NCBI RefSeq assembly: GCF_029714365.1
Contig: NZ_CP121659.1
Location: 3,020,501 to 3,084,500 of the forward strand
Reading direction: 5' to 3'
Origin: Sinorhizobium terangae
Lineage (GTDB): Bacteria > Pseudomonadota > Alphaproteobacteria > Rhizobiales > Rhizobiaceae
DNA length: 64,000 bases
Position 1 is the stretch's first letter. The number at the start of each line of letters is the position of its first letter. Made by a program: the position numbers and the translations under genes. The notes beneath the pieces were generated by a model. The model ran no database searches, had not been told where the DNA came from, and saw nothing but the letters and a program-made list of their open reading frames with translations. Of the stretch, positions 26,552 to 38,962 are shown one piece after another.

Positions 26552-26742
26552 CCGCACCCGGATGCTCGCAGCCGGTCAGACACAGCGAACCGCAACTGGC
26601 CGAACGATCAAATGTCGAATAGTTTATCGCATCGGTCATTTGCCCCGCAGGTGCCGGCAGCAATTCAAAGTCCTCCAGCGAGCCTTGCGCATCCGATTGG
26701 ACGCGCGGCGCTCAGAAGCAGATGTCGTCGACAGGTAGAACG

Positions 26743-28011
26743 ATGAACGACCAGCAGATCCGCGAGCTAATACTGTGGACATCCGAGCAGGGGATCCGTG
26801 GGAGTGAGGAGCCCGAGTTGCTCGCCGGCTTCTGCGACAGGTGCAAACAGGCCGGACTCCCGATCGAGCGCGCGCTCGGCCTGATCGACACGCTTCATCC
26901 TGAAATCGAAGGCCGTTCGTTCACTTGGGACAGCGCAAGCGGGGAAGCCCCCGAGGTCACTCCCTATGGATCGACCGCCACCGGCGAAATGCAGGCGAGC
27001 TGGCAACGCTCGATCTTCTATCACATGCTCGTGGAACGCCAGGCAGAGCGACGCATTCGGCTCGCCGCTGCAACGTCCGTTCCCTACAATTTCCTCGATA
27101 CGCTGAAGGCGGACGGCTACACCGACTGCATCAGCATGATCCACTATTTTACCGACCGGGGCCGCGTCGGCGAGATGGACTGCTTTTACTCCTATTGGAC
27201 GACGAAGAGGACGGACGGATTCAGCGACGATGAGATCGACGCGTTAAGGGTGCTGTTGCCGACGCTCGCACTCGCCGTCAAGGCGGCCTCCTGTGTGCGC
27301 ATCATCAGCACGCTTGCCGATGTCTATCTCGGTCAGGACGCCGGCCAGCGGGTCGTCAAGGGCAGCATCGAGCGCGGTGCGGCGGAGAAGATCGAGACCG
27401 TGATGTGGTTTTCCGATCTGCGCAACTATACGCGGATATCCGAGACGGTTGCTCCGGAAGAGGTCATTCCACTTCTCAACGACTATGCCGGCACCGTGAT
27501 CACCGCGATACACGACCATGGCGGCAGCGTCCTGAAGCTGATCGGCGACGGCGTTCTGGCGATCTTCAATGCCGGCGACCGCGCCAGCGCCTGTGCCTCG
27601 GCGGTCGCTGCCGAGCGGCAGTTGCGCCTGATGCTGAACGAGCTGAACGCAAAGCGGCGCGATGATGGAAAGCCGACGACCGACATCTACCTGGGCCTGC
27701 ATATCGGCGAGGTCTTCTATGGCAATATCGGCAGCCAGAACCGGCTAGACTTCACCGTCGTCGGTCCGGCAGTCAACGAGGTGAGCCGGATCGCATCGAT
27801 GTGCCGGTCGGTCGAACGGCATGTTGTCATGTCCTCGGAATTTGTCGAGGCCTGTCCGGCCGTGTTGCGTGCCGACGCCGTTTCACTTGGCCGTTTCGCG
27901 CTGCGCGGCATCGCCCGGGCAAAAGAGCTGTTTACCTGGGACCCGGAGATTGCGGCCGCAATCGATTCGAATGATCAAACCGGGCCGGCCCCTCGCTACA
28001 CAGCGTCGTAG
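26743..28011 (+). CDS. Class III adenylate/guanylate cyclase
   Basis: 422 residues. The C-terminal half (about 215-410) is a class III nucleotide cyclase domain. The metal-binding aspartates are Asp225 in WFSDLRNYTRISE and Asp269 in LIGDGVLAIF, with LDFTVVGPAVNEVSRI carrying the substrate and transition-state residues. The ~200-residue N-terminus has no transmembrane segment and no domain I can name. Rhizobia encode many such cyclases with different input domains. I take ATG 26743 (MNDQQIREL); ATG 26722 is also in frame. The sequence favours cAMP over cGMP only weakly. Confidence 0.9.
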   Translation: MNDQQIRELILWTSEQGIRGSEEPELLAGFCDRCKQAGLPIERALGLIDTLHPEIEGRSFTWDSASGEAPEVTPYGSTATGEMQASWQRSIFYHMLVERQAERRIRLAAATSVPYNFLDTLKADGYTDCISMIHYFTDRGRVGEMDCFYSYWTTKRTDGFSDDEIDALRVLLPTLALAVKAASCVRIISTLADVYLGQDAGQRVVKGSIERGAAEKIETVMWFSDLRNYTRISETVAPEEVIPLLNDYAGTVITAIHDHGGSVLKLIGDGVLAIFNAGDRASACASAVAAERQLRLMLNELNAKRRDDGKPTTDIYLGLHIGEVFYGNIGSQNRLDFTVVGPAVNEVSRIASMCRSVERHVVMSSEFVEACPAVLRADAVSLGRFALRGIARAKELFTWDPEIAAAIDSNDQTGPAPRYTAS

Positions 28012-28015
28012 CTGC

Positions 28016-28165
28016 CCCTCACCCTAACCCTCTCCCCGCGCGCGGGGGACACCGTCGGCGTGGTGCGGGTGGCGTCCACGGCTGCCAGGAACGAGAGTGG
28101 GCGCCGCGAGTCCCTTCTCCCCACCTGCGGGGAAAAGGTAGCGGCAGCCGGATGAGGGCGGACAC
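28016..28165. repeat. RIME-like palindromic repeat after the cyclase gene
   Basis: The same two-palindrome layout as at 18777-18899: CCCTCACCCTAACCCTCTCCCC, a GC-rich middle, then CCCTTCTCCCC..GGGGAAAAGG and GCCGGATGAGGG. The middle section is longer here. It begins 5 bp after the cyclase stop and may serve as its transcript end. Confidence 0.7.
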
Positions 28166-28201
28166 AAGCGGGCGGGCTGCACGAGCCTTCCTCATCTCGC
28201 C

Positions 28202-28307
28202 TACAGCGCCGTGCGTCCTTTAGGACGCACAAAGGACGCTGTAACTCTTTGATTCCACGCATCGTGCTTTCCGAAAATCGGGTCCGATTTTCGGGCCGAT
28301 GTGCTAG
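28202..28307. repeat. 106-bp two-hairpin repeat, left copy flanking pnt
   Basis: Hairpin 1 is TACAGCGCCGTGCGTCC/GGACGCAC..GGACGCTGTA and hairpin 2 is CCGAAAATCGG/CCGATTTTCGG. By direct comparison it matches the reverse complement of 32056-32161 at 104 of 106 positions. The two copies bracket the pntB-pntAb-pntAa-oxidase IV region in inverted orientation. Confidence 0.85.
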
Positions 28308-28374
28308 AGCGGGATGAGCTTACGTGCGTTCGCGCCGCCGCTCTATCTGTTTGTTTTTGCGGCATTTGTGTGAC

Positions 28375-28394
28375 GTCAGGTGATTCCACCTGAC
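28375..28394. repeat. Short perfect inverted repeat downstream of pntB
   Basis: GTCAGGTG, 4-nt loop, CACCTGAC. It lies 12 bp after the pntB stop and may act as a weak transcript-end hairpin on the minus strand, though no T-run follows. Confidence 0.5.
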
Positions 28395-28405
28395 TGCACA
28401 ATGCT

Positions 28406-29806
28406 CTAGTGATTGATCGCCTTGACGATTTCCTCGGTGACCTTCTTGGCGTCGCCCAAGAGCATCATCGTGCCGTCCTTGTAGAACAGCGTGTTGTCGA
28501 TGCCGGCATAGCCGGAGCCGAGCGAACGTTTGACGAACAGGCAGGTCTTGGCCTTGTCGACGTCGAGGATCGGCATGCCATAGATCGGCGAGGTCTTGTC
28601 GTCGCGCGCCGCCGGGTTGGTGACGTCGTTGGCGCCGATGACATAGGCGACATCCGCCTGGGCAAATTCCGAGTTGATGTCTTCCAGCTCGAACACCTCG
28701 TCATAGGGCACGCTTGCCTCGGCAAGGAGCACGTTCATATGGCCCGGCATGCGACCGGCGACCGGATGGATGGCATATTTGACCTCGACGCCATTCTCCT
28801 TGAGCTTGTCGGCGAGCTCGCGCAGCGCATGCTGCGCCTGCGCCACGGCCATGCCGTAGCCCGGCACGATGATCACTTTCGAGGCGTTCTGCATCAGGAA
28901 GGCGGCGTCGTCGGCCGAACCCTGCTTGACGGTCCGCTGGATGCCGTCGTCGCCGCCGGTGGCCGCCGTCTCGCCGCCGAAACCGCCGAGGATCACCGAG
29001 ATGAACGAGCGGTTCATGCCCTTGCACATGATGTAGGAGAGGATCGCACCCGACGAGCCGACCAGCGCGCCGGTGATGATCAGCGCCAGGTTGCCGAGCG
29101 TGAAGCCGATGCCGGCGGCCGCCCAGCCGGAGTAGGAGTTGAGCATCGAGACGACGACCGGCATGTCGGCGCCGCCGATGGGGATGATGATCAGGACGCC
29201 GAAGATGAGCGACAGAAGAACGATCGCCCAGAAGTCGAAATGACTTTCGGTCAGCGCCAGGCCGACGATGAAGAAGACGACGAGCGCGACCAGCGCGATG
29301 TTGATCGCATGGCGATAGGGCAACAGGATCGGCTTGCCCGACATGCGGCCATCGAGCTTCAGGAAGGCGATGACGGAGCCGGTGAAGGTGATCGCACCGA
29401 TTGCGACGCCAAGCGCCATCTCGACGAGTGCCTGGGCGTGGATCGCACCGATTTCGCCGATGCCGAAGGAGGACGGCGCATAAAGCGCGCCGGCGGCGAC
29501 CAGCACCGCGGCAAGGCCGACGAGCGAGTGGAAGCCGGCGACGAGCTGCGGCATCGCCGTCATCGGGATGCGCTTGGCGATATAGGCGCCGGCGCCGCCG
29601 CCGAGCGCGAGCCCGAGCACGATCAGCAGAAAGCCGCCGATCGAAGGCATGGCGAGCAGGAGCGTCGTAGCGATGGCGATGCCCATGCCGACCATGCCGT
29701 AGGCATTGCCCCGGCGGCTGGTGGTCGGATGCGACAGGCCGCGCAGCGCCATGATGAACAGGACGCCGGAGACGAGATAGAGGAAGGCTGCGAAGTTAGC
29801 GTTCAT
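28406..29806 (-). CDS. pntB: NAD(P) transhydrogenase beta subunit
   Basis: 466 residues. The N-terminal two thirds hold about nine membrane helices of the proton channel, and the C-terminal domain (from about residue 290) binds NADP(H): GYGMAVAQAQHALRELADKL, HPVAGRMPGHMNVLLAEA and YVIGANDVTNPAA. Together with PntAa and PntAb it couples proton entry to reduction of NADP by NADH at the inner membrane. It is the third and last gene of pntAa-pntAb-pntB, 9 bp after pntAb. Confidence 0.97.
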   Translation of the reverse strand: MNANFAAFLYLVSGVLFIMALRGLSHPTTSRRGNAYGMVGMGIAIATTLLLAMPSIGGFLLIVLGLALGGGAGAYIAKRIPMTAMPQLVAGFHSLVGLAAVLVAAGALYAPSSFGIGEIGAIHAQALVEMALGVAIGAITFTGSVIAFLKLDGRMSGKPILLPYRHAINIALVALVVFFIVGLALTESHFDFWAIVLLSLIFGVLIIIPIGGADMPVVVSMLNSYSGWAAAGIGFTLGNLALIITGALVGSSGAILSYIMCKGMNRSFISVILGGFGGETAATGGDDGIQRTVKQGSADDAAFLMQNASKVIIVPGYGMAVAQAQHALRELADKLKENGVEVKYAIHPVAGRMPGHMNVLLAEASVPYDEVFELEDINSEFAQADVAYVIGANDVTNPAARDDKTSPIYGMPILDVDKAKTCLFVKRSLGSGYAGIDNTLFYKDGTMMLLGDAKKVTEEIVKAINH

Positions 29807-32055: not shown

Positions 32056-32161
32056 CTAGCGCATCGGCCCGAAAATCGGACCCGATTTTCGGAAAGCACG
32101 ATGCGTGGAATCAAAGAGTTACAGCGTCCTTTGTGCGTCCTGAAGGACGCACGGCGCTGTA
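32056..32161. repeat. 106-bp two-hairpin repeat, right copy flanking pnt
   Basis: This is the reverse complement of 28202-28307 with only two differences visible (one in the loop of hairpin 1, one near the end). Such similarity against the diverged repeats elsewhere in the window suggests recent duplication or gene conversion. Confidence 0.85.
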
Positions 32162-32210
32162 ATGCATGTCACCCAAAAGTGTGCAGCGGTCTTGGGACAA
32201 CGACATGCAT
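32162..32210. repeat. ATGCATGTC..GACATGCAT palindromic unit, inverted copy
   Basis: Reverse-complement copy of the unit at 4386-4433 upstream of glgP, with a few substitutions. It follows the 106-bp unit without a gap. Confidence 0.7.
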
Positions 32211-32328: not shown

Positions 32329-33105
32329 TCATCCGCGCGTTGATGCACGGGAGTAAGCGCGGCCGTAGCTGCTTTGCGCAAATCGCGCGGTGGGCAGGAT
32401 CGTCAGCGGTGCGAACGGCACTTCGCTGCGGTCCGCAAACATCATCCGGCGCTCGAACGGTTCGGAATCGAAAACCGGAAAGCGGTCGAGGATCGAGGGG
32501 CGCTGTCCACGAACCCGCGCGACCAAGAGGGCGCCGTCGGCATTGTAGACGCCGAGATTTTCCCGGCACGCCACAACCGTCTCCGAGGCAAAGATGCGCT
32601 TGTAGAAGGCCGTATGACGCGGCCGGCACGCCGTCAGGCAGCGGTCGGCGGAAAAGTATTCACAGGCCATGGCAACCGGCCTCAGCGTCAGATAGGGCAG
32701 CGCCCGCATCTCGTCGCCGATCACCTCGGGATCCACGGCGAGCCGGCCGGGATCGATCAGAACCATGCCCGCATCGAGAAAGGTATCGATCTCCGGACCG
32801 AAGATGATTCCGGACGTGCTTGCCCGATGGTCCGGCGTGACATGGTGGACCCGCACCGTGCTGACCAGGTTCTCGTCAAGGTAGATACCGAAGACATAGG
32901 CGTGGCTGTCGAAGTCGAGGTCGTCTATCAACGTCGATCCCGTCAGCTCCATGAGGTTGACGGCCTTGTAGGCCTTGTATCGGAGCCGCGCGATGTCTTC
33001 CATGTCCTCGCCGGTTTCGACGCGCCTGTATTCGACGCGGTCGAGCAGCTGCATCAGCTTCTCGGAAAAAGTTCCAGGCTCCGCCTGGCGCCCATCAGCA
33101 CCCAT
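32329..33105 (-). CDS. FeeM-like N-acyl amino acid synthase / autoinducer-synthase-like acyltransferase
   Basis: 258 residues. The core (about 25-215) resembles the GNAT-fold N-acyl amino acid synthase family founded on FeeM, which is related to LuxI-type synthases: RLRYKAYKAVNL, DDLDFDSHAYVFGIYLDENLVSTVRVHHV, then a Pro-Gly-Arg-Leu-Ala segment. Such enzymes join an acyl chain from acyl-ACP to an amino acid. No signal peptide or membrane segment is seen. ATG 33105 lies behind GGGGGTAAA. The upstream region has three perfect CtrA boxes. The product is unknown, and an untested signalling or membrane-lipid role is possible. The C-terminus ends at the edge of a repeat, so it may be slightly altered. 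Confidence 0.75.
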   Translation of the reverse strand: MGADGRQAEPGTFSEKLMQLLDRVEYRRVETGEDMEDIARLRYKAYKAVNLMELTGSTLIDDLDFDSHAYVFGIYLDENLVSTVRVHHVTPDHRASTSGIIFGPEIDTFLDAGMVLIDPGRLAVDPEVIGDEMRALPYLTLRPVAMACEYFSADRCLTACRPRHTAFYKRIFASETVVACRENLGVYNADGALLVARVRGQRPSILDRFPVFDSEPFERRMMFADRSEVPFAPLTILPTARFAQSSYGRAYSRASTRG

Positions 33106-33121
33106 AAGTTTACCCCCATAG

Positions 33122-33136
33122 TTAACAAAGGGTTAA
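33122..33136. promoter_or_regulatory. CtrA box 1 (TTAA-N7-TTAA)
   Basis: TTAA at 33122-33125 and 33133-33136 with exactly seven bases between (CAAAGGG), the alphaproteobacterial CtrA consensus. It is only 17 bp upstream of the FeeM-like ATG, so it may overlap the transcript start, which could make it repressive. Confidence 0.65.
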
Positions 33137-33185
33137 CCTATTGACGGCTGATGAGCTGGCAACCACAAAATGATACAGACTGCAC

Positions 33186-33217
33186 TTAACCTTTTGTTAA
33201 CCTTAACAGAAGGTTAA
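33186..33217. promoter_or_regulatory. CtrA boxes 2 and 3, tandem TTAA-N7-TTAA
   Basis: Two further perfect TTAA-N7-TTAA sites, 33186-33200 and 33203-33217, separated by 2 bp, about 80-110 bp upstream of the FeeM-like ATG. Three exact sites in under 100 bp is a strong cluster. CtrA is the master cell-cycle response regulator in this group. Confidence 0.7.
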
Positions 33218-33389: not shown

Positions 33390-35700
33390 TCAGGCGATGC
33401 GCTGGCTGGACGACTTGGTGGTTCGTTTCCGTGCACCTTGCTTGCACAGGGCGTCGATCGCGGAGGCCGGCATCGGCGCTGCGAAGACAAAACCCTGTAT
33501 CAGATCGGCGCAGTTGAATTCGTTGATTAGCTGGAGCTGGTCCGCTGTCTCTACCCCTTCGACGACCGTCTTCAGGCCGAGCGCGCGGGCAAGATTGACG
33601 GTTCCGCGCAAGAGCTTGAAGCGCCGCGCGTCTTCGCGAATGTTGCGGACGAAAGACCGGTCAATCTTGATGATACCGGCAGGCAGCGTATCGAGATAGC
33701 TGAGGCTCGAATAACCGGTGCCGAAATCGTCTATGGCGATGGTTATGCCTCGCTCGTGCAGGTCGCTGAGAATGCCTTGAACCTTGGCCGGCTCGTCCAT
33801 CAGGCAGCTTTCCGTCACCTCGAGGTGCAGCCGCGCCGGATCCAGCCCCGTTTCCTTGAGCGCCTCGGTGACCATCGAGACGATCTCGTCGCCCCTGAGA
33901 TCGAGGACCGAGAGATTGACCGACACAGACATGTCCGACGGCCAGTTCGTGCAGTCCCTGCACGCCTGCCTTAAAACATAACGGGTGATGTGGGTCACTA
34001 GACCCATTTCTTCGGCAAGCTGAATGAACACATTCGGCGGGACAGGCCCGCGCTCGGGATGCGTCCAACGCGCCAATGCCTCACAGCATTCGATCCGCGA
34101 TCCATCCGGCGTGAACATTGGCTGGTAGGACAGGCTCAGGCCATTTGCATTGAGTGCCTCGCGCAGATCGCTCTTGAGCTTCTGGCGGTCGAGATAGCGG
34201 GCGTCCATCTCGCTTTCGAAGGCCGTGCAGCCCCCCCTTGTTCCTTGCCTTGGTTTCCGAGAGCGCCAGGTCCGCCTTGATCTGCAGGTCTTCGAACCGG
34301 AAATCGCCACTCGGCACGATGACGAAACCGGCGCTCATGGTCATATTGAATGTGAAACCGCCAGCAACGTAAACGCCGCGCAGCCCGGCATGCACGGCGC
34401 GGATCCGTTGCTCCAGATCGGAGGCATCTGCCCTGTTGGGGAAGAAGACCACGAATTCGTCGCCCATCAGGCGGGCGGCTATCGCATCGTCGCCGGTCAG
34501 GGACTTCAGGCGTTCGGCGACCGCCTGAAGTAATTTGTCGCCGACCACATGCCCTCGCGTATCGTTGACATGCTTGAATTCCGCCACGTCGATAAGGAGA
34601 AAGCCTATGTTGCGCCCGTGCCCGCCGTTGGCAGCCATGGCATGGTGGGCAAGTTCGGCAAAATAGTCCCGGCTCGGCAGGCCTGTCAGCGTGTCGAAGC
34701 GTACCATCTGCAGGATCTTCTTTTCCGCCTGCACACGCGCGGTCACATCCTCGAAGGTCAACACGATCTCGCCGTTCTCGCGGCGATTTGCCGAAAATTC
34801 GAGGAAGCGGTCTTGTGACGTCGAAATCAGCGCGCGCGAGTGCTTTCCCTCGATCAGCAGGTCGAGCTGTCGCGCAATCGTCTCCTTGTTCTCCGTGCCG
34901 AGCGCCATGCGGTCGGCCGCTTGTTCAAGGACTTCGCTGAGCAGGCGCTCCTTGAGAACGGCCTTGTCGCCAAGGCCGAGGAGTTCGCAGGCGCGTTCGT
35001 TCGCGACCACGATGCGATGGTCGCCGTCGAGCATGAAGAGCCCATGCGTCATATTGTTGAGCGCGGCGTCGAACTGCCCGGCGATTGTCGAGATTTCCCG
35101 TGCGGCGAGGACATTCTCGTAAAGAAAGGCGCGCACATTGTTTGCCATCGTCCAGGTGGTCAGGATGAACGGCAGTATCAGCACCGCCAGGACGAGCATG
35201 TAGGGATCCCGCAAGGTCAAGAGACCGATCACGATCGGCAGGCAGGCCGACGATGACAACAAGAGAACCGCCCGCTCGGAACCATAGTTCCGGCCGACGA
35301 GCGAAATCATCGATGCCAGCGTCACCGAAATGCACGCAAGTTCCGCGAAGGAATCCTGACTGATGACGATTGCATATCCGCAGGCAATGCCGCAGGTCAG
35401 CGTCACGCTGACGCCGCCGACGATGTACCGGTTTTCCCATTTTCTGACCATCGCGTTGTCGGCGTCGGAAAAGTCCTGCCGGTCGAACCGGGTCATGTCG
35501 AGATTGCGGAGCGCCCAAACGACGACAATGGTCGCGGCGCAGATCAGATAGAAGGGATCGGAGGTCTTGAGAAAGACAAGCAGGAAGGTCACGACGTGCG
35601 ACAGCATGCCGATTACCAGCGTCCGGCGATGTTCATAGAGCGAACTCACAGACGACAGGTAAACATCTGTCGGAAGAGCGCCCCGTTCATTGGGCATCAT
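33390..35700 (-). pseudogene. Membrane GGDEF-EAL protein split by a one-base frameshift in a G7 run
   Basis: Two overlapping frames make one protein of about 770 residues. The first (35700 to 34081) has about five or six membrane helices (30-190), a PAS-like segment (about 205-315) and a GGDEF domain whose signature reads MGDEF, so cyclase activity is doubtful. The second (to 33390) has an EAL domain with EALARW, LEVTES, DDFGTGYSSL and KIDRSFV intact, so phosphodiesterase activity is plausible. The frames meet at a seven-C run on the plus strand (34231-34237). Removing one base restores ARNKGG-CTAFESEMDARYLDRQ. It could be a recent mutation, phase variation, slippage during transcription or a sequencing error. 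Confidence 0.85.
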
Positions 35701-37877: not shown

Positions 37878-38900
37878 TCAGGCGGTCACGCGTAGCGGGC
37901 CGGTCGACTGGCGAATGCGCATCTCCGGCTTTATCAAATGGATTCCATCCGGCTCATGGCTGCCGGAAAGTTTGTCGAGCAGCGCTCGCGCAGCGCTGCG
38001 GCCGACATCGGCCTGGCCGTTCCAGACAGTCGTCAGCGCCGGGGTCGCGATCGAGGCTTCCTCGAGATCGTCGTAGCCCGTGACCGAGATGTCGACGCCC
38101 GGCACGAGCCCGGCGCGGGCAATGCCGTTCATCATACCGATTGCCACCAGGTCGTTCCAGCAGACGACTGCCGTGGGCTTTTGCGGCAGCGACAAGAGAT
38201 GCACCGCCGCCTCGAACCCGCCCTGCTTGGAGCGCGGCCCGGGAATGCGCAAGTCCGGATCGACCTGGATATTCGCCTTGCGCAGCGCGTTTACATAACC
38301 CTGGTAGCGATCACGGCCGGTCGACGTCTGGTCGGTGCCGCCGACCATCGCGATGCAGCGGTGGCCAAGGCCGATCAGGTGATTGGTCGCAAGCGAAATG
38401 CCATAGGCGTCGTCGCCACGGAAAATCGGCACGTCGAGTCCTTCGATCGACCGGGCGATCAGGATCGCCGGCATGCCGTTGTCCTCGGCAAGCTGGATGT
38501 CCTCCGGGGGAGTGCCGATCGCCGGCGACATGATGACACCGTCGCCGCCAAGCTGCAGCAGCGTCTCGATGAAGTCGCGCTGCTTCTCGACGGAATCGTA
38601 ATGGTTGGAGAGGATGAAGGTCTGCTTGTCGCGATCGAGTTCCGCCTCGATCGCCTTGAGGATTTCCCCGTAGAACGGGTTCATGATGTCGTGCACGACG
38701 ACACCGATGATGCCGGACCGCGACGTTCTCAAGCTCGCGGCGCGACGATTGTAGATATAGCCGAGCGCGCGTGCCTGTTCCTTGATCTTGTCGCGGGTTA
38801 CGGTCGCCACCAGTGGGCTGTCACGCAATGCCAGGGATACTGTCGCCGTCGAAAGGCCGAGTGTTTCCGCGATTGTCGAAAGCTTGACCTTTTGCGCCAC
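37878..38900 (-). CDS. LacI-family transcriptional regulator
   Basis: 340 residues. The N-terminal helix-turn-helix and hinge are VKLSTIAETLGLSTATVSLALRDSPLVATVTRDKI and IYNRRAASLRTSRSG. A periplasmic-binding-protein-like sensor domain follows (GIIGVVVHDIMNPFYGEIL to GVDISVTGYDDLEEA). Such proteins usually respond to a sugar or sugar acid. It probably regulates itself and the hydroxyacid dehydrogenase downstream. A palindromic operator candidate lies about 50 bp upstream of the start. Confidence 0.93.
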   Translation of the reverse strand: MAQKVKLSTIAETLGLSTATVSLALRDSPLVATVTRDKIKEQARALGYIYNRRAASLRTSRSGIIGVVVHDIMNPFYGEILKAIEAELDRDKQTFILSNHYDSVEKQRDFIETLLQLGGDGVIMSPAIGTPPEDIQLAEDNGMPAILIARSIEGLDVPIFRGDDAYGISLATNHLIGLGHRCIAMVGGTDQTSTGRDRYQGYVNALRKANIQVDPDLRIPGPRSKQGGFEAAVHLLSLPQKPTAVVCWNDLVAIGMMNGIARAGLVPGVDISVTGYDDLEEASIATPALTTVWNGQADVGRSAARALLDKLSGSHEPDGIHLIKPEMRIRQSTGPLRVTA

Positions 38901-38947
38901 TATGTCCCCCCGAATTCACCGATCTCTTCAGCCCGTTTTAAATCCTC

Positions 38948-38962
38948 TTTAAACTGTTTAAA
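38948..38962. promoter_or_regulatory. Candidate LacI-family operator
   Basis: Perfect 15-bp palindrome TTTAAAC-T-GTTTAAA centred 55 bp upstream of the lacI-family start. A single-base centre is less usual for this family than a central CG. A TTAA-N7-TTAA match (38938-38952) overlaps it, so CtrA binding is an alternative reading. Confidence 0.5.

Follow-up and report, generated by a model that had tools for sequence, protein, structure and literature searches.

The closest described relatives of the enzyme considered here are FeeM itself (PDB 2g0b; Pfam family PF21926) and the synthases Nas343 and Nas354 from a slaughterhouse biofilm metagenome, in which FeeM-like domains are reported to be fused to putative PilZ domains for cyclic di-GMP (c-di-GMP) (PMC4897644). 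The cell-cycle regulator CtrA is described as controlling LuxI-type acyl-homoserine lactone synthases in Dinoroseobacter shibae and other alphaproteobacteria (PMC4046655), and in Sinorhizobium meliloti the genes for flagellin, RcdA and MinC are reported to be bound or directly controlled by CtrA (Pini et al. 2015, PMC4433202). Here, we analysed 64,000 nucleotides of Sinorhizobium terangae (NZ_CP121659.1, positions 3,020,501 to 3,084,500; hereafter, the window), in which a gene for a FeeM-type acyltransferase lies behind three CtrA-type sites and next to a gene for a GGDEF-EAL protein. Nas343 and Nas354 offer an independent precedent for a FeeM-type synthase with a c-di-GMP link, although there the putative c-di-GMP-binding domain is part of the same protein (PMC4897644), whereas the acyltransferase of the window has no PilZ match in Pfam and a c-di-GMP-type gene as its neighbour. 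The LuxI/CtrA system resembles this locus in having CtrA sites ahead of an acyl-signal synthase with broadly the same fold, but that survey concerned autoinducer-synthesis and autoinducer-binding Pfam families of scattered occurrence (PMC4046655), whereas here a different enzyme family carries deeply conserved sites.

The regulatory feature that we describe is real and conserved; it belongs to a known domain family, and the context is new. The elements that carry this finding are the following:

32329–33105, minus strand: gene for the FeeM-domain acyltransferase (258 amino acids), a confirmed open reading frame (ORF)
32752–32754, minus strand: codon of Asp118, aligned to the conserved glutamate of FeeM in a hidden Markov model (HMM) alignment between the family and 2g0b (weak, E 0.13)
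33122–33136, minus strand: proximal CtrA-type full site, 17–31 nt upstream of the start codon, conserved in Sinorhizobium
33186–33200, minus strand: middle CtrA-type full site, conserved in Sinorhizobium
33203–33217, minus strand: distal CtrA-type full site, conserved in most Sinorhizobium loci
33186–33217, no strand assigned: inverted double box TTAA-N7-TTAA-N2-TTAA-N7-TTAA in a 17-bp register, with a 14-pair stem

The three perfect TTAA-N7-TTAA sites lie exactly where the original prediction had placed them, and the motif, which it had taken for the CtrA consensus, indeed equals the published full site (PMC4287350, PMC7200025). In the whole window there are 4 such sites where 0.03 would be expected, and 0 of 100 shuffles gave as many. 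Genome-wide, 3 of the 35 perfect sites fall within 96 bp at this promoter, and elsewhere just one pair lies closer than 300 bp, at a distance of 276 bp. A simple sigma-70 scan of the promoter region found no promoter, so we claim no transcription start site. We also dropped a TATCAT hexamer located 10 nt past the middle box by hand count, which would put the box near −38 and thus close to the −39 position of a Caulobacter full CtrA site (PMC4287350), because the hexamer is not conserved. The fourth perfect site of the window (38938–38952) lies about 38 nt upstream of a minus-strand ORF (37878–38900) that resembles a LacI-type regulator.

Conservation was followed in 177 loci, namely 63 named loci (L007–L069), 65 from relatives (L070–L134) and 49 further ones (48 from a search of the order and 1 from a search of the class); the first two sets share genomes and do not count as independent. 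The 65 relatives' loci derive from 66 matched genomes, with the window itself (G000) and a fragment (G074) omitted and two loci taken from G083, and start codons of the fetched loci were picked by script. In 15 aligned Sinorhizobium promoters, the TTAA positions are 98% conserved (20/24 invariant) against 78% for the N7 spacers (6/21), 77% for the other promoter bases, 55% for the bases upstream of the sites and 81% for the first 30 coding bases. As judged from these alignments, the CtrA-type sites are a conservation footprint, with TTAA standing out from its spacer. A perfect site is found upstream of the acyltransferase in 58/63 named loci (the others being L051–L055), 42/65 relatives' loci and 26/49 further loci. 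The 42 relatives' loci hold 79 sites, whereas shuffles averaged 0.54 loci (maximum 3), and as controls, a perfect site precedes 2 of 182 other ORFs in these loci and 1 of 135 neighbouring GGDEF-EAL genes. Among loci below 50% identity, the site is kept in 20 of 41 against a shuffle mean of 0.34 (maximum 4), and when spacers of 3–12 nt were compared in such loci, a spacer of 7 was far ahead as the sole standout. The double box, with up to 3/16 mismatches allowed, occurs in 56/63 named, 36/65 relatives' and 4/49 further loci, compared with 2/60, 0/30 and 0/45 upstream of the GGDEF-EAL gene and 1/3540 in shuffled regions. The plurality letters of 57 double boxes from loci below 70% identity read TTAACCATTTGTTAACCTTAACAAATGGTTAA, where the boxes were selected by their TTAA letters and the spacer letters reach only 35–74%. 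The clustering of the three sites and their conservation in relatives are not due to chance.

The family of the acyltransferase was clear from its Pfam profile, as PF21926 scores 134.7 bits against a curated cut-off of 27. Its best predicted-fold match is FeeM, with 179 residues aligned at 16% identity in the structural alignment and the last 50 residues outside it, and an HxxFY motif shared with FeeM is near-invariant. The CtrA-type sites and the GGDEF-EAL neighbour set the locus apart from FeeM. When the protein alone was searched against PDB sequences, no match up to E 1 was returned, and a 30-row family profile had FeeM on top, yet at E 0.13 only; the FeeM assignment is thus carried by the Pfam profile and the fold. 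The original prediction had seen a resemblance to both FeeM and LuxI. The FeeM part is borne out, whereas membership in the LuxI family was dropped, since no autoinducer synthase family appeared among the three Pfam matches up to E 1, in a scan whose filters discard most matches above E 0.1. NCBIfam returned 0 families up to E 1, and the protein is accordingly not placed among the PEP-CTERM-associated acyltransferases. Public protein records contain 523 relatives at E 1e-5, and PF21926 was present in all of the 120 among the matches listed. These relatives are already named "FeeM domain-containing", which is a domain name only, or hypothetical protein, and neither the promoter nor the gene pair is part of the records.

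Upstream of the promoter lies the second gene, whose features are:

33390–35700, minus strand: membrane-PAS-GGDEF-EAL gene, split into ORFs 34081–35700 and 33390–34310
35065–35700, minus strand: N-terminal membrane domain with seven predicted helices (the L008 orthologue has no Pfam match here)
34237–34698, minus strand: GGDEF domain with an MGDEF motif (PF00990, 7.5e-35)
33474–34169, minus strand: EAL domain (PF00563, 5e-66)

The pairing of this gene with the acyltransferase is new here. A co-directional GGDEF-EAL gene, defined as a match that ends up to 2.5 kb upstream with intervening genes allowed, is present in 170 of the 177 loci (63/63 named, 61/65 relatives', 46/48 order and 0/1 class loci; L093 and L096 are too short upstream for the neighbour to be judged). 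The alignment begins within the first 60 query residues in 140 of these 170 loci, many of the others being short loci. Among 136 full-length cases, the gap has a median of 211 nt and stays within 400 nt in 117, and the EALxRW and DDFGTG motifs are intact in 136/136, while GGDEF or MGDEF is found in 119/136. The N-terminal ~200 residues are predicted to form a helical membrane bundle, for which a model search of the PDB at E 0.001 gave no match. In a sample of 297 genomes of the order, the acyltransferase occurs in 54 and the membrane domain in 82; the membrane domain is present in 52 of these 54 (not in G141 and G723) compared with 30 of the 243 genomes without acyltransferase, in lists that were compared by hand and in which some of the 30 are weak matches in shorter proteins. 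Clustering of ORFs from 85 loci revealed, among the 12 largest clusters beyond the pair, none present in more than 24 loci, and the largest, in 24 loci, sits upstream of the GGDEF-EAL gene. Near the locus, 26722–28011 encodes an adenylate/guanylate cyclase-type protein (PF00211, 3.3e-12), a further cyclic-nucleotide enzyme. By eye, 27996–28262 and ~32100–32165 appear to share a stretch (GIKELQRPLCVLKDARR in one frame) that looks like an intergenic repeat element flanking the pnt genes on both sides.

At the thresholds used, the acyltransferase family is mainly confined to the order, as it was found in 54/297 genomes order-wide and in 3/385 class-wide, two of the latter being the window's own genome and another of the order. 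Within the genus, 13 of 31 other genomes lack it at E 1e-10 (one of them, G009, is 70% complete). Five of these Sinorhizobium genomes keep a GGDEF-EAL orthologue, and in all five (5/5) the 8–9 kb fetched contained no perfect site, indicating that the sites go with the acyltransferase. The other eight gave only partial, 33–39% identical matches to GGDEF-EAL proteins and hence have no orthologue of either gene. Among these is G031, with a chromid that matches NZ_CP141213.1, deposited as S. meliloti, without a difference over 6001 bp. The absence of both genes from this S. meliloti-labelled genome means that S. meliloti data are not simply transferable.

The same motif elsewhere in the genome is in agreement with the S. 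meliloti CtrA regulon. We examined 31 of the other 32 perfect sites, leaving out the window site at 38938–38952, and found 28 of the 31 outside long ORFs. Among ten proteins scanned behind such sites were flagellin, RcdA (two sites) and MinC, the same genes as in that regulon (PMC4433202), and the other seven were outer-membrane, porin or transglutaminase-like proteins or had no match. The S. meliloti-labelled genome differs in that the acyltransferase was not found there. The S. terangae genome has a ctrA orthologue, 83% identical to the CtrA sequence used for comparison. At L269, a divergent transglutaminase-like gene (PF06035) and an ORF lacking a Pfam match have a perfect site between them. 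At L004/L244 (G000:C1 ~27233–28957) there is a weak FeeM-profile match (18.1 bits, below the cut-off), followed ~470 nt further on by another perfect site and an ORF that likewise has no Pfam match.

Taken as a whole, we consider it probable that the gene encodes a FeeM-type acyltransferase under direct CtrA control, whose product is an N-acyl amino acid or a similar aminolipid and whose function is linked to that of the GGDEF-EAL enzyme. The acyltransferase would most likely join a fatty acyl group, probably from acyl-acyl carrier protein, to an amine, for instance an amino acid. CtrA would bind the inverted double full site and the proximal full site and so control transcription directly, and the output of the enzyme would then track the CtrA-P phase of the cell cycle. 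As for the putative direction of this control, full CtrA sites in Caulobacter are reported to go with activation and half sites over the −10 with repression (PMC4287350), and minCD of S. meliloti is repressed by CtrA (PMC4433202). Synthesis of the product may be functionally linked to the upstream membrane-PAS-GGDEF-EAL enzyme, which would place lipid production and c-di-GMP turnover in one pathway. We regard as unlikely the further idea that CtrA drives a lipid signal, the membrane-PAS-GGDEF-EAL protein senses this lipid and alters c-di-GMP, and c-di-GMP feeds back on CtrA, in an order-wide loop not described before. Our literature search found no study joining CtrA with N-acyl amino acids, FeeM with GGDEF, or CtrA with an EAL domain and an acyltransferase promoter in Rhizobiales, and none on the locus tags SMc03940–SMc03943, and what it turned up on direct targets in Bradyrhizobium concerned other regulators; the main text of the S. 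meliloti CtrA regulon study (PMC4433202) does not mention GGDEF, c-di-GMP or acyltransferases. The original prediction had proposed a possible tie of the product to the cell cycle or to bacteroid differentiation, and this interpretation stands in part: the FeeM relation and the conserved CtrA-type sites are in its favour, whereas the bacteroid idea is not supported.

Several observations weigh against parts of this interpretation, starting with the chemistry. The position of the catalytic glutamate of FeeM is Asp in 168 of the 177 loci, Cys in 4, Asn in 3 and Glu in 2. In Nas354, changing Glu103 to Ala is reported to have abolished activity (PMC4897644), and the residue aligned to this catalytic glutamate here is Asp118, a placement that comes from the weak HMM alignment. 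Chemistry may thus differ from that of FeeM, and it is conceivable, though rather doubtful in our view, that the protein, a GNAT of the FeeM fold, has shifted in its chemistry and transfers, for instance, acetyl or short acyl groups to a small metabolite or protein; it would then be controlled by CtrA and make no N-acyl amino acid. The position is Cys or Asn in L107, L108, L110, L113, L119, L197 and L200, so that an acidic residue is not universal, even in paired genes. With regard to CtrA, the count of 35 perfect sites in the genome compares with 32 for a reversed control pattern, meaning that the motif alone is not enriched genome-wide. The promoter region of ctrA (1.5 kb) holds only one near-site and one TTAACCAT, perfect sites are missing from 23/65 relatives' and 23/49 further loci, the double box fades in distant families, and CtrA binding in S. 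meliloti can lack a transcriptional effect, as reported for rcdA (PMC4433202). The dyads could instead be operators of another regulator of TTAAC inverted repeats, such as MucR or some factor that is unknown. In favour of this, the double box is an inverted repeat, and MucR is described as a repressor of CtrA-activated genes in Caulobacter (PMC4287350). We find this very unlikely, as the motif is identical to the published full site and precedes the flagellin, RcdA and MinC genes in this same genome.

The functional link between the two genes also has an alternative, in which they are neighbours by ancestry only, have no joint function, and CtrA controls the acyltransferase alone. This is a serious possibility, even if not the one that we expect. 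The sites track the acyltransferase and not the GGDEF-EAL gene, which persists without the acyltransferase in the five Sinorhizobium genomes mentioned above, and two (L126 and L238) of five well-flanked loci lacking a co-directional partner keep a perfect site. The order of genes around pntA is likewise kept in many loci, with pntA and cox4 as further neighbours, so adjacency may partly reflect shared ancestry. In addition, the GGDEF-EAL gene is frameshifted in the window assembly, while it forms one ORF in L007 (S. terangae USDA4894), which differs from the window by one gap and no mismatch over 2435 aligned bases; the frameshift is either a sequencing error or a strain difference. Against neighbourhood by ancestry alone, the pair persists at 31–45% identity in many loci with no pntA found nearby, and is present in nearly all loci of the order sample, as described above.

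Finally, a FeeM-type gene that is conserved far beyond Sinorhizobium lies behind the cluster where perfect CtrA full sites are densest in this genome. Studies centred on S. meliloti may miss the gene pair, since the S. meliloti-labelled genome that we examined yielded neither of them. Our results suggest a tie between lipid production and the cell cycle in rhizobia and related bacteria, and the sites together with the c-di-GMP pairing suggest a concrete role for the acyltransferase, in which a lipid would be made at a set time of the cell cycle.
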